This document shows positions 1,323-4,538 of a DNA stretch of 6,705 nt, in pieces. The notes under the pieces were generated by a model. It was not told the origin of the DNA, searched no databases, and saw nothing but the letters and a program-made list of their open reading frames with translations. Within the stretch, counting starts at the first letter, position 1, and every line of letters begins with the position of its first letter. The DNA is taken from assembly GCA_022704885.1 (NCBI GenBank), contig JAKJFO010000220.1, forward strand, positions 1 through 6,705, read 5' to 3'. The stretch comes from Candidatus Rifleibacteriota bacterium (GTDB lineage Bacteria > Riflebacteria > Ozemobacteria > Ozemobacterales > Ozemobacteraceae). The translations under genes and the position numbers were made by a program.

Positions 1323-2807
1323 ATGACAGAGTTATCTACACCTTTTCTGGAAGATTCACTTGAGGCGATACCCTGCGGGCACTCCTGCCGGGCATTGGAT
1401 TTTCTGCAGCAGATTTATCACGCCGCGCCAATCGGCATGGTTGTAGTAGATGAAAAGCAGGAAATTGTCAGGCTCAACCGCCGGTTCGCCGCTATGATCG
1501 GGCTTGAATCTGAATCATGCATCGGTGTCAGAATCGGCAGGCTGCTGCCGACGCTGGCTAACAAGCTGGGGCATCTTCTCACAGATATCAGCGCCGATAT
1601 GAGCGCGGGCAGCGAGCAGGAGTTCACTTTTCGCCTCGATGGCGAGCTGCGCACCTGGTCGATCACCGCCTACCCGGTGCGCCGGCAGGACACTGAGACT
1701 GCGGCGGTCAGTCTGATCATTCACGATATCACTCAGTTACGCAAGGCAGAAGGTGATCTCGCCGAGGCGCTGAACCAGATCAAGGCCCTCGAAGAAAAAC
1801 TACGCCTCGAAAATGCGCTGCTTAAGGGCGAAATCGCCAGAGAAAGCGAGCATTCTCACATGGTTGGCAGTAGTCAAAGCCTGCGTGAAGCGATTGGCAA
1901 AATCCGGCAGGTAGCACCAACCGACGCCACTGTTCTGATCAGCGGCGAAACAGGAACGGGTAAGGAGCTCGCCGCCAGAGAGATTCATCGTCTGAGCAGA
2001 CGTATCGATCAGCCGATAATCGTGGTGAACTGTGCGGCATTGCCTGCCAATCTGATAGAAAGCGAGCTCTTCGGCCATGAAAAGGGCTCTTTTACCGGCG
2101 CGATAGCACGTAAAATCGGCAGATTTGAAATAGCTGACGGAGGTACGATTTTTCTTGATGAAATTGGCGAAATGCCGCTGGAATTGCAGAGCAAGCTATT
2201 GCGTGTCCTGCAGGAAAACCAGATCGAGCGTATCGGCAGCCACAAACTGATAGATATCGATGTCAGGGTGATAGCTGCCACCAATCGCACGCTGTATGAC
2301 GAGGTAAAGGCCGGTCGCTTTCGCGAGGATCTGTTTTTCAGGCTGAACGTCTTTCCCATCCATCTACCAGCCCTGCGTGAGCGCGGCAGTGACGTCATCG
2401 AAATTGCCACCGACTACATGTATTTCTGCGCACGCAAACATGGCCGTAATATCAAGGCAATATCTCAGGCTTCGCGGCAAAAACTGCTCGAATACAGCTG
2501 GCCGGGCAATATTCGCGAACTACGCAATCTGATCGAGCGTTCGGTGATTTTGTGTCAAACCGACACACTCGAACTCGAAATTCCTTATTCGCAGTCTGCA
2601 ACCATGCCAGCCGAACAAAAGGCTTCGCCAGGTACCCTGAAAACTCTCGCTGAAGTGCAAAAACTTCACATTCAGCAGATTCTTGAGCGAACAGCCTGGC
2701 GGGTACGGGGAGAGCACGGAGCCGCTGAAATACTGGGCCTAAAGCCAACAACTCTCGAATCAAAAATGAAAAAGCTCGGTATTTCGAGAAAACCACGCTC
2801 TGCTTAG
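1323..2807 (+). CDS. Sigma54-dependent transcriptional activator: PAS - AAA+ - Fis-type HTH
   Basis: This bacterial enhancer-binding protein uses ATP hydrolysis to open promoters held by RNA polymerase-sigma54. Numbered from the ATG at 1323 (494 residues), it has a PAS sensor at about 22-138 ([21 protein letters not shown]), a coiled-coil signalling helix at about 139-176, and the AAA+ domain at about 178-410. The AAA+ motifs are Walker A GETGTGKE (208-215), the sigma54-contact loop GSFTGA (255-260), Walker B TIFLDE (275-280), sensor I ATNR, arginine-finger candidates R334 and R340, and WPGN (393-396). A Fis-type helix-turn-helix occupies about 462-488 ([22 protein letters not shown]), FhlA-like in style. 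The usual GAFTGA reads GSFTGA, keeping the essential F and T. There is no receiver domain, so a ligand or redox state probably signals through PAS. An N-terminal CGHSC (C18, C22) is unexplained. An ATG at 1317 abuts AGTGGA with no spacing, whereas 1323 has 6 nt, so 1323 is preferred. The likely target promoter lies 54 bp downstream. Confidence 0.94.
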
Positions 2808-2860: not shown

Positions 2861-2876
2861 TGGCATGACAATTGCT
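2861..2876 (+). promoter_or_regulatory. Sigma54 (-24/-12) promoter
   Basis: TGGCATGACAATTGCT fits the sigma54 consensus TGGCAYR-N4-TTGCW at every defined position. The GG of the -24 element and the GC of the -12 element have the required 10-nt spacing. It is intergenic, on the same strand as the sigma54 activator gene that ends 54 bp earlier, and reads into the small ORF at 2922. Transcription should start near 2887. No competing good sigma70 promoter was seen in this gap. Such promoters are silent without an activator ATPase, and the adjacent gene encodes one. Confidence 0.85.
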
Positions 2877-2921
2877 AAGTTAATAGCAGGCATGTAAATC
2901 GAATAAGAAAGAGCAACGGCA

Positions 2922-3032
2922 ATGATTATCCTGTTCAACATACTAATGATCTGGGTAAGATTCATAATGCTTATTTCTGCCGTAAAACAAGCTGTCAGAA
3001 ACGGTCAAAACCGACAGGCTATTTATCGCTGA
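2922..3032 (+). CDS. 36-residue hydrophobic/basic mini-protein under a sigma54 promoter
   Basis: ATG at 2922 to TGA at 3030-3032 encodes 36 residues. Residues 1-20 (MIILFNILMIWVRFIMLISA) are strongly hydrophobic with one arginine at 13. Residues 21-36 are polar and basic (K22, R26, R31, R34-type charges, ending QAIYR). This suggests a single membrane-inserting helix with a positively charged cytoplasmic tail, the general build of many small stress-induced membrane proteins and of type I toxins such as TisB; no homology is claimed. A weak SD, AAAGAG (2908-2913), lies 8 nt before the ATG. The ORF fits exactly between a sigma54 promoter and a strong terminator and is the longest ORF of that transcript. 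The last third overlaps a possible hairpin (CTGT 2992-2995 with ACAG 3014-3017, and CGGT 3002-3005 with ACCG 3010-3013), so the transcript might instead act as RNA. Confidence 0.6.
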   Translation: MIILFNILMIWVRFIMLISAVKQAVRNGQNRQAIYR

Positions 3033-3062
3033 ATACACAGTATCTGCCACACAGACATGCGA

Positions 3063-3091
3063 GGGCTGCTTCCAACTGAAGCAGCCCTTTT
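3063..3091 (+). terminator. Intrinsic terminator of the sigma54 unit
   Basis: GGGCTGCTTC (3063-3072) pairs perfectly with GAAGCAGCCC (3078-3087) around the loop CAACT, giving a 10-bp stem followed by TTTT (3088-3091). It ends the plus-strand transcript from 2861, giving an RNA of about 200 nt. Read on the minus strand it lacks a T-tract, so it is not an obvious terminator for the facing Ig-like gene. Confidence 0.9.
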
Positions 3092-3153: not shown

Positions 3154-4122
3154 TCATATCGTCATGAAGACCATGTTAACAATGCTTTTTGTCTGCTTGA
3201 TCGAAAACGGGTTATCAGAGACCGACATGCCGGCAACGTATGGCTTCCAGACACCGCCATCCAGAATATGCGTCACGACAGGAGCGGGTGGGCGCGTTTG
3301 ATGTATGTAGAACGTCTTGACCGCATTACTGGGATTTCCGGCAAAGTCGGAGACATCAACCGTAAGTCTTATCTTACGGTAGTTCTGCCTTATGAGTCCC
3401 CAGTCATTTGGGAAAAAGTTGATCTGTTTATTACCATCATTCGAAATCGTTCCTGGCACAGGGTTCCAGCTGGGTGTCACCAGATTGGGATCGCCTTCAG
3501 TAGGCATAGCGGCGTATTCACACTTATATTGTGCCGTAGAAAAGTCGATACCAGAACCAGTTTCCGTTACAATAGCATAAATAAGACCGACCTGACACTG
3601 AAACAAGGCATTCGACCGACACCCGGAGTTACCATACCAGATGGAAATCGCAGGACCGGCGGTGTCGACCACAACCGGCACGGCGCCGCTGAGTTCGCTG
3701 ATGAAAATTCCATCGAAGGCCTGAGCAGCAAAAGAATAAGAACCCTGCAGGTGTGAGCTCAACGTAATCGACCAGACACCATCTGAGGCTGTGGTTCCGG
3801 TGGCGATCTGAACGGAATTGCGGTAAAGCCTGATTTCTGTGGCGGCTTCGGCATTACCTCTGATCACAAATGTATCACTGTTAGAATACATTGTCGTATC
3901 AGGAGCTACAGCTTTGCCGTATATGTGTGTGATGGTCGGGGCGTTGATGGCGTAAACGATAGAAGGCAGACATACAAATGATGTAACCATCAAACACAGA
4001 ACAAAAGTGAAACAACTCTGCCATAATGATGATTTACTAACAGGGTTAACGAACAACCGGTCTGGTACATAAAATGACCGACCGGCGGCTGATCTGGGCT
4101 CCCTGTTTGGGGTGTGCCCCAT
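3154..4122 (-). CDS. Exported Ig-like repeat protein, C-terminally truncated in appearance
   Basis: The protein has 322 residues from the ATG at 4122. A hydrophobic segment at 34-58 (WQSCFTFVLCLMVTSF... ending SIVYA) looks like a signal peptide with cleavage after VYA, though the preceding n-region is long. A TTG start ten codons further upstream is possible but lacks an SD, while this ATG has AGGGGG 5 nt upstream. The mature part is rich in beta-forming residues and carries bacterial Ig-like repeats. The first (about 61-153) opens APTITHIYGKAV and includes DGVWSITL. A second (about 154-275) opens VDTAGPAISI and ends VDVSDFAGNPSNAVKTFYI. A third opens APVVTHILDGGV at 280 and stops after about 43 residues at a double stop TGA TAA. 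Three mature cysteines are at 168, 176 and 201. The likely role is an envelope or secreted adhesin/structural protein (inference). It is convergent with the sigma54 unit; no clear promoter was found in 4123-4349. Confidence 0.8.
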   Translation of the reverse strand: MGHTPNREPRSAAGRSFYVPDRLFVNPVSKSSLWQSCFTFVLCLMVTSFVCLPSIVYAINAPTITHIYGKAVAPDTTMYSNSDTFVIRGNAEAATEIRLYRNSVQIATGTTASDGVWSITLSSHLQGSYSFAAQAFDGIFISELSGAVPVVVDTAGPAISIWYGNSGCRSNALFQCQVGLIYAIVTETGSGIDFSTAQYKCEYAAMPTEGDPNLVTPSWNPVPGTISNDGNKQINFFPNDWGLIRQNYRKIRLTVDVSDFAGNPSNAVKTFYIHQTRPPAPVVTHILDGGVWKPYVAGMSVSDNPFSIKQTKSIVNMVFMTI

Positions 4123-4349
4123 GTATGCCCCCTGCTGCTCGAATAACCCCAACTTAATTGTAGAAGATTTTGGTATTTATGTAAAGAAGCGCCGGCAGAC
4201 TGCAGCAATTCTCGGGCAGCATGACGATCAAAAAAAGCGATGTATCAAAATTATGACCTCTGTTGATGCAGGCTTTACAGCTCACCAAAAATCGTTTGAG
4301 AGACTGTTCGGAGACGTAAAAAAAACGACAGAATAAAGCAGCAAATCTA

Positions 4350-4378
4350 TTGACAGCGTTGCTGCCCGATGGTAGAAT
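4350..4378 (+). promoter_or_regulatory. Strong sigma70 promoter upstream of the leader RNA
   Basis: A perfect -35 TTGACA (4350-4355), an ideal 17-nt spacer and the -10 TAGAAT (4373-4378, 5 of 6) make this the best sigma70 promoter in the window. Transcription should start near 4385. It drives the structured transcript ending at the 4510-4538 terminator. It is also the only convincing promoter upstream of the nucleoside kinase gene. Confidence 0.85.
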
Positions 4379-4459
4379 AGATTCTTCCCAAATTTCAGAT
4401 GGATCAGCTTGAGATTGAGAAATTTTCTTCAGTTAAACAATTCTTTCAAGGCGAATAAT

Positions 4460-4488
4460 GCTGCCAGGTGGGGCAAGACCTGAGCAGC
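4460..4488 (+). other. Bulged hairpin in the leader RNA
   Basis: Two 5-bp helices, GCTGC/GCAGC and CAGGT/ACCTG, are stacked with a single bulged A4483 and an 8-nt loop GGGGCAAG. It ends 21 nt before the terminator stem. Its 3' strand overlaps the GCGGG that can pair with the terminator, so the hairpin and an antiterminator would be partly exclusive. Confidence 0.6.
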
Positions 4489-4509
4489 GGGTGTTTTGTG
4501 TATCTTTAT

Positions 4510-4538
4510 CCCCGCAGCCACTGCGGGGTCATTTTTTT
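4510..4538 (+). terminator. Intrinsic terminator 31 nt before the nucleoside kinase gene
   Basis: CCCCGCAG (4510-4517) and CTGCGGGG (4521-4528) form a perfect 8-bp GC-rich stem with the loop CCA, followed by TCA and then seven T (4532-4538). It would stop the transcript begun near 4385. For the kinase gene to be expressed from that promoter, polymerase must read through or the stem must be prevented from forming. Confidence 0.88.

Follow-up and report, generated by a model that had tools for sequence, protein, structure and literature searches.

The locus considered here raises the question of what is produced by a predicted sigma54 transcription unit of 231 bp that follows the gene of a PAS-type sigma54 activator, and which protein switches it on. 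The window, the whole stretch of 6,705 nucleotides that was analyzed, comes from a Candidatus Rifleibacteriota bacterium. Re-reading of its sequence locates the -24/-12 box, the 36-codon ORF, and the hairpin of 2861-3091 as they had been placed in a preliminary description of this DNA (Table 1), and the combination proved to be real, with the same elements in the same places in three close relatives. The sigma54 -24/-12 consensus is of the TGGCAC/T-N5-TTGC kind; the box of the window reads TGGCATG-ACAA-TTGCT, begins 54 bp beyond the activator stop codon, which ends at 2807, and has the form of a sigma54-dependent promoter that is retained in relatives. The strict box, TGGCAYGNNNNTTGCW, occurs in 7-20 copies per genome in seven relatives, and its reversed control in 0-2. 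A likely Shine-Dalgarno-like element precedes the ORF, and purine-rich stretches read by eye stand before the peptide ATG in the relatives G010 (AGAAAGG), G009 (GAAAGG), and G027 (AAGGAAG). The terminator arms, GGGCTGCTTC and GAAGCAGCCC, form a stem at 3063-3087 that reaches 11 bp with an outer A-T pair and is followed by a short TTTT run; it is not listed by the generic terminator scan because that scan demands five or more T within eight bases.

Table 1. Features of the locus (positions are those of the window unless a locus is named)
Feature	Sequence	Position	Strand	Basis or remark
PAS-domain sigma54 enhancer-binding protein gene		1323-2807	+	Pfam domains, 12-sequence alignment
Probable enhancer dyad 1 (GTG-N9-CAC)	GTGTCAAACCGACAC	2552-2566		309 bp before box, inside activator coding sequence
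Probable enhancer dyad 2	GTGCAAAAACTTCAC	2655-2669		206 bp before box, inside activator coding sequence
Sigma54 (-24/-12) promoter	TGGCATGACAATTGCT	2861-2876	+	Sequence; predicted start near 2887
5' arm of possible closing helix of transcript	GCATGT	2890-2895	+	Can pair with 3055-3060
Likely Shine-Dalgarno-like element	AAGAAAGA	2905-2912	+	Purine-rich, invariant in four close genomes
36-codon ORF	MIILFNILMIWVRFIMLISAVKQAVRNGQNRQAIYR	2922-3032	+	Six relatives 42-78% identical
3' arm of possible closing helix	ACATGC	3055-3060	+	Consensus fold
Intrinsic terminator		3063-3091	+	10-bp stem, 5-nt loop, TTTT
Probable small-RNA loci (outside window)		L001:1824, L002:1617, L003:1640; also L066, L069-L079	minus (first three)	

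The upstream gene encodes a protein with the Pfam domains PAS_4, Sigma54_activat, AAA_lid_14, and HTH_8 (PF00158 at 241.6 bits), and it combines the sigma54-interaction AAA+ domain, GAFTGA-type loop, and Fis-type HTH by which enhancer-binding proteins are recognized. This loop is GSFTGA in all 12 aligned activator proteins and GAFTGA in the G009 ortholog, and two cysteines just before the PAS domain (20 and 24 in the 496-aa frame) are invariant in the same 12. Alignment of the orthologs places the start at the ATG of 1323, which gives 494 aa, in preference to that of 1317, which is also a possible start. Riflebacteria names are attached to three homologs of the activator. Strong orthologs were found in 5 of 39 genomes of the phylum (G001, G002, G003, G009, and G010); 15 further genomes with weaker matches (best E 3.4e-8 or worse) were not counted as having orthologs, and L004, from Methylococcaceae and 25% identical, was excluded as unrelated. 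Among the short loci, the Walker-type motif expected of sigma54 activators was not found in L013-L034, L036, and L037, and L035 carries a different activator-type frame.

A sigma54 box after the activator and a peptide gene are present in all five genomes with a strong ortholog; the preliminary description had treated promoter and activator as belonging together, and none of the five (0 of 5) has kept the activator without the box. The named Riflebacteria CH46, MM_PC, and HGW-1 each have the activator ortholog, a gap of 40-55 bp, a box of the form TGGCATGN4TTGC[TA], and a 36-codon ORF, with one match to the peptide unit per genome, and in all three the promoter, ORF, and hairpin recur beside the orthologous activator, which is the conservation that had been proposed as a check. 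Relatives of the peptide itself (E ≤ 1e-3) occur in 6 of the 39 genomes, the five that bear the activator and G027, again with one match in each. The G009 box after the activator has ATGC instead of TTGC at -12, and in G009 and G010 the box at this position is followed by an ORF of 165-175 residues with no Pfam match and then by the peptide; the one-peptide unit is therefore not universal. In G027 the peptide lies behind a box of its own, TGGCACATCTTTTGCT, at the same locus with xthA upstream and no activator in between, and in the best activator match of that genome the alignment, at 47%, does not begin until residue 148. Loss of the activator in G027 appears likelier than its ancestral absence because an xthA tree, unrooted and with no outgroup, groups G027 with G009 and G010 (support 0.96 and 0.999); the G genomes are possibly incomplete. 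Perfect stems of 9-12 bp lie 3' of the peptide ORF in six of seven loci, the window included. The CH46 hairpin is without a clean T run, and G027 has no perfect stem of at least 7 bp within 100 bp past the peptide stop codon.

Conservation of the ORF at 2922-3032 in six relatives rules out a chance or decayed reading frame. It is confined to the stretch from ATG to stop codon, with no invariant position in the five codons upstream; within the frame, ten positions are invariant in seven peptide sequences (M1, I2, I10, W11, R13, F14, S19, A20, Y35, and R36), and eight remain after addition of two database proteins to the alignment. A search of 5.8 billion proteins with the peptide gave three matches at E ≤ 1, the G009 copy among them, and no Pfam or NCBIfam model matched the family. 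Distant copies differ at synonymous sites, yet retain IWxRF, SA, and YR-stop. Pairwise differences among four close genomes at the three codon positions number 21, 23, and 53 of 216, and variable columns are distributed 6/7/14. The synonymous/non-synonymous pattern, which had also been named as a check on the ORF, thus favors a coding role when pairs are counted (chi-square 4.8e-5 for the third-position excess, on non-independent pairs) but is weaker by columns (p = 0.06). Comparison shows the 231 bp to be a conserved gene for a predicted 36-residue cationic hydrophobic peptide with its own putative sigma54 box.

Eight of the peptide sequences have one strong N-terminal hydropathy segment and a net charge of +5 or +6, and the AlphaFold2 model (nine sequences) is a single helix of residues 2-34 with a mean pLDDT of 77. 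The peptide is probably membrane-bound, insertion being deduced from hydropathy and the helix model of the nine sequences. Its small size, single hydrophobic stretch, and charge in the eight sequences would also be consistent with a type I toxin-like membrane peptide. This identity is improbable: each genome has a single peptide match at E ≤ 1e-3, a promoter scan that covers the sigma70-like type lists no minus-strand promoter of that type in 2861-3091, and strict conservation of the polar residues R13 and S19 would be more in keeping with a specific partner than with pore formation.

The peptide ORF is also constrained at the nucleotide level. In codons for the same residue, compared in six pairs drawn from the four close genomes to which this measurement extends, synonymous change amounts to 4-19% in the peptide as against 49-55% in the activator, and in each pair none of the 463-466 windows of 36 activator codons is as low as the peptide ORF. 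Several of the frozen codons are non-preferred (AGA, GTA, and ATA, for example), and invariant columns make up 84 of 111 in the ORF as against 19 of 45 and 9 of 28 in the flanking UTRs. Recent horizontal spread was rejected as the cause because the UTRs are much more diverged. Folding of the ORF upon itself gave no explanation, the ORF alone folding no better than shuffles in seven sequences (z -0.32 to 1.80), nor did an overlapping antisense ORF, one antisense frame being open over part of the ORF in all four genomes with no shared start or stop by eye. Frozen sites, non-preferred codons, diverged UTRs, and poor folding of the ORF therefore suggest, as the simplest reading, that the peptide mRNA may have an extra RNA function. 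The whole transcript, terminator included, folds with z-scores of -0.96 to -4.39. Its possible closing helix, GCATGT/ACATGC, has six columns that are invariant in four sequences, shows very little covariation, and is missing from the minimum-energy fold of HGW-1. Covariance models of Rfam gave no match at E ≤ 1 in 2861-3091 of the window.

The motif GTG-N9-CAC occurs exactly twice in the window, at 2552 and 2655, and both dyads, 103 bp apart, are found in six of six activator orthologs. The lowest synonymous change in the activator gene falls in a 7-codon window over dyad 2, and the next separate cluster lies over dyad 1. Of 768 triplet-spacer combinations tried, GTG-N9-CAC alone is conserved twice in all six orthologs, and synonymous resampling, which ignores shared ancestry, gave even one site in all six in 0 of 2000 trials; the dS of the four close genomes, 1.6-4.6, is close to saturation. 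In a matrix built from 24 small-RNA promoter sites, none from the window, the site at 2655 ranks first in the window (14.8, the next scoring 4.3) and dyad 1 at 2552 only third (4.2). Comparison shows that these putative dyads in the 3' coding sequence of the activator are conserved beyond the needs of the protein, and they are probably upstream enhancers of the sigma54 unit. On this sequence basis the peptide promoter has two conserved candidate sites of the upstream-enhancer kind.

The same dyad is associated with a second type of transcription unit. In CH46, MM_PC, and HGW-1, another sigma54 box lies nearly 6 kb upstream of the peptide box on the opposite strand and precedes a highly conserved segment of about 200-230 nt with a terminator-like hairpin at its end, which we read as a small RNA (sRNA); it has no Rfam match at gathering score in these three genomes, and the HGW-1 sRNA folds with a z-score of -4.4. 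Its near-invariant, C-rich 3' domain (TATCCTCTCAAAAGATCCTCTCACTTTG and the hairpin) has matches in 19 of the 39 genomes, at up to three places per genome, and among the matches listed a sigma54 box lies upstream in 12 of 14 loci. A set of 13 sRNA loci, from which L074 and L078 were left out for having no box that fits the expression used, has GTG-N9-CAC in every case in the 210 bp that lead up to the box, the rate in the rest of those loci being 0.053 per 210 bp; eight of the 13 are in genomes that have no strong PAS ortholog. No enhancer-binding protein gene was found by motif adjoining the sRNA in 19 loci of about 2-3 kb.

Searches of the 39 genomes for dyad plus box, with spacings that were set after the first loci were known, gave in total 26 distinct boxes, of which 19 belong to the sRNA, 5 to the peptide, and 2 to other sites; reversed controls gave 0. 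Pattern one yielded 21 rows with 19 distinct boxes, 17 of them with the sRNA core within 600 bp and 2 without it. The G027 pattern, in which the dyad stands 145-175 bp before the box, fits only two places in the 39 genomes, the sRNA and the peptide of G027 itself, and pattern three gave nine rows, four peptide and five sRNA. The G009 peptide locus escapes these patterns because its -12 element reads ATGC. One of the two other sites, in G013, also resembles by eye a short RNA with a hairpin. The near-absence of other genomic fits is the informative part of these searches. Because the dyads are common with the sRNA family, even in the absence of a strong PAS ortholog, the peptide unit is not an isolated one-gene output. 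The earlier claim of a self-contained unit is upheld in that the sigma54 unit is conserved and the 36-mer is its only protein product here, but not in respect of isolation.

How far the transcript acts as RNA has to be weighed against this background. That one transcript serves both as mRNA for the peptide and as an RNA that works by base pairing is a possible, if rather doubtful, extension of the coding reading: synonymous sites are frozen, some in non-preferred codons, while the UTRs vary much more, but the frozen sites come from only four close genomes and the ORF has no strong fold. Pairing between the sRNA and the peptide mRNA gave no clear signal in three genomes, the fractions of equally good mononucleotide shuffles being 0.74, 0.065, and 0.445. 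A predominantly regulatory RNA with an incidental ORF is very improbable. Synonymous change in the ORF below that of every 36-codon activator window in six pairs, the possible closing helix, and the finding that other members with the same dyad are sRNAs would be consistent with such an RNA. However, G009, G010, and G027 keep the protein sequence despite many synonymous differences, conservation is bounded by the frame, purine-rich sites stand before the ATG, a second gene occurs in the same unit, the ORF is no better folded than shuffles, and the pairing signal is not clear in the three genomes. A purely noncoding unit was rejected.

The identity of the activator is the second part of the question. 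The PAS protein had been called the probable activator of the unit, which is supported by adjacency in six of six orthologs but weakened by G027, which keeps peptide, box, and dyad with no PAS protein. The role is plausible on sequence grounds but unproven, because the dyads are common with the sRNA family and G027 lacks the protein. The PAS protein may not be what binds them, because G027 lacks it and no close relative of its HTH was found in the distant sRNA genomes. The dyads adjoin the PAS gene, but would also serve genomes that have no PAS protein, and the chances that this protein is the direct activator here are about even. Only slightly less probable than an even chance is control of sRNAs and peptide alike by an older enhancer-binding protein, common to the phylum and recognizing GTG-N9-CAC, the PAS protein being a neighbor or later co-regulator. 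All 13 sRNA loci have a dyad before the box, although eight belong to genomes with no strong PAS ortholog; G027 has both peptide and sRNA, each with a dyad, and no PAS ortholog; and a search of the distant sRNA genomes gave no close relative of the HTH at E ≤ 1e-4. Against such a protein, the enhancer-binding protein lists of six relatives give several candidates each and single out none; the PAS gene lies next to dyads and promoter in every one of the six orthologs; and the genomes that appear to lack a PAS ortholog may be incomplete. GAF-type paralogs at L060 and L061 found no support as the sRNA activator, the 350 bp that precede the box downstream of each being free of GTG-N9-CAC; L060 has one 13-bp GTG..CAC before that box. 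By eye, L060 (G027) and L061 (G009) each hold a GAF-like sigma54 activator gene followed by a same-strand sigma54 box and a peroxiredoxin-like gene, another activator with an adjacent unit in the same phylum.

The explanation that we favor overall, with good though not full confidence, is that of a conserved peptide gene under sigma54 activation from enhancer dyads, with a membrane peptide as product and an added function of its mRNA. A stress or starvation signal would lead an enhancer-binding protein to bind the GTG-N9-CAC dyads and, through looping, to engage sigma54 holoenzyme at 2861 and fire the peptide unit, together with the dyad-bearing, sigma54-driven small RNAs. Within the clade, the closest candidate for this binder is the PAS protein encoded next to the unit, perhaps beside an older phylum-wide activator. 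The peptide, with its conserved I-W-x-R-F...S-A and basic C-terminal tail, would enter the inner membrane by a single N-terminal helix and there may modulate a membrane protein partner, and its mRNA may itself carry a function, as the frozen synonymous sites suggest. More tentatively, and somewhat short of an even chance, the dyad may define a GTG-N9-CAC sigma54 regulon with almost only tiny outputs, C-rich sRNAs and a dual-function peptide transcript, with enhancers inside the coding sequence of a sensor-activator. The syntenic block also holds hsp33 (L155:3886-4770, Pfam HSP33; L154:8806-9693 and L001:2096-2998, by eye) as well as xthA. The proximity of hsp33 and xthA and the invariant cysteines of the PAS protein hint at an oxidative-stress signal.

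The crcZ gene of Pseudomonas is sigma54-dependent. In the excerpts of PMC8871633 that bear on it, crcZ, a regulatory-RNA gene, sits downstream of the enhancer-binding protein gene cbrB as a separate unit, and the statement that no named system has the present layout was too strong given this precedent. The likeness, a small unit with its own transcript that comes after the gene of an enhancer-binding protein, CbrB, and is controlled by that protein, is documented in excerpts of PMC8871633 and PMC6296734. The systems differ in that CrcZ is noncoding, whereas the unit at 2861-3091 has a conserved ORF and a peptide product, and in that CbrB is a response regulator, as opposed to a PAS-type regulator here with dyads inside its own coding sequence. 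In Vibrio, LuxO, a single sigma54 activator, drives several related sRNAs, the Qrr RNAs, and the sRNAs with GTG-N9-CAC may be driven in a similar way, but the sequences, sensor type, and enhancer of the Vibrio system are different, and we know of no peptide gene of the 36-mer kind in that system. Stress-induced membrane proteins of the YohP type, as described in part of PMC12719787, likewise have fewer than 50 residues; the 36-mer resembles them in size, predicted membrane type, and putative regulation, and matches no Pfam or NCBIfam model. Literature searches gave no sigma54 small-protein unit of this layout among the matches listed, and a survey of sigma54 regulons (PMC12316311) contains none of the terms Riflebact, small RNA, sRNA, and small protein. 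Within the reach of these searches, the peptide family, the dyads, and the joint regulon are new, and the kind of circuit is already known. A promoter and probable enhancers can thereby be assigned to a small-protein family of the little-studied Riflebacteria that is matched by no Pfam or NCBIfam model, together with a candidate regulon and a predicted place in the membrane, and the locus offers a case of putative enhancer sites kept within protein-coding sequence by suppressed synonymous change. One DNA motif ties the peptide gene to a widespread sigma54 sRNA family, and the regulator, signal, and targets are therefore directly testable.

Other features of the window may be recorded briefly. 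A strong sigma70-like promoter (11/12, with TG before the -10) at 4350-4378 is followed after about 130 bp by a strong terminator-like hairpin at 4510-4537, before a nucleoside-kinase gene, and the two may possibly constitute a leader RNA or attenuator (4350-4537). Between xthA and the activator, the minus strand carries a 63-residue cysteine-containing ORF (979-1170), and a similar reading is seen by eye beside xthA in G027. An Ig-like protein gene (Big_6, below the curated cut-off) occupies 3154-4152 on the minus strand; at its position MM_PC, HGW-1, and G027 have, by eye, a different gene on the plus strand, for a small secreted-looking protein.
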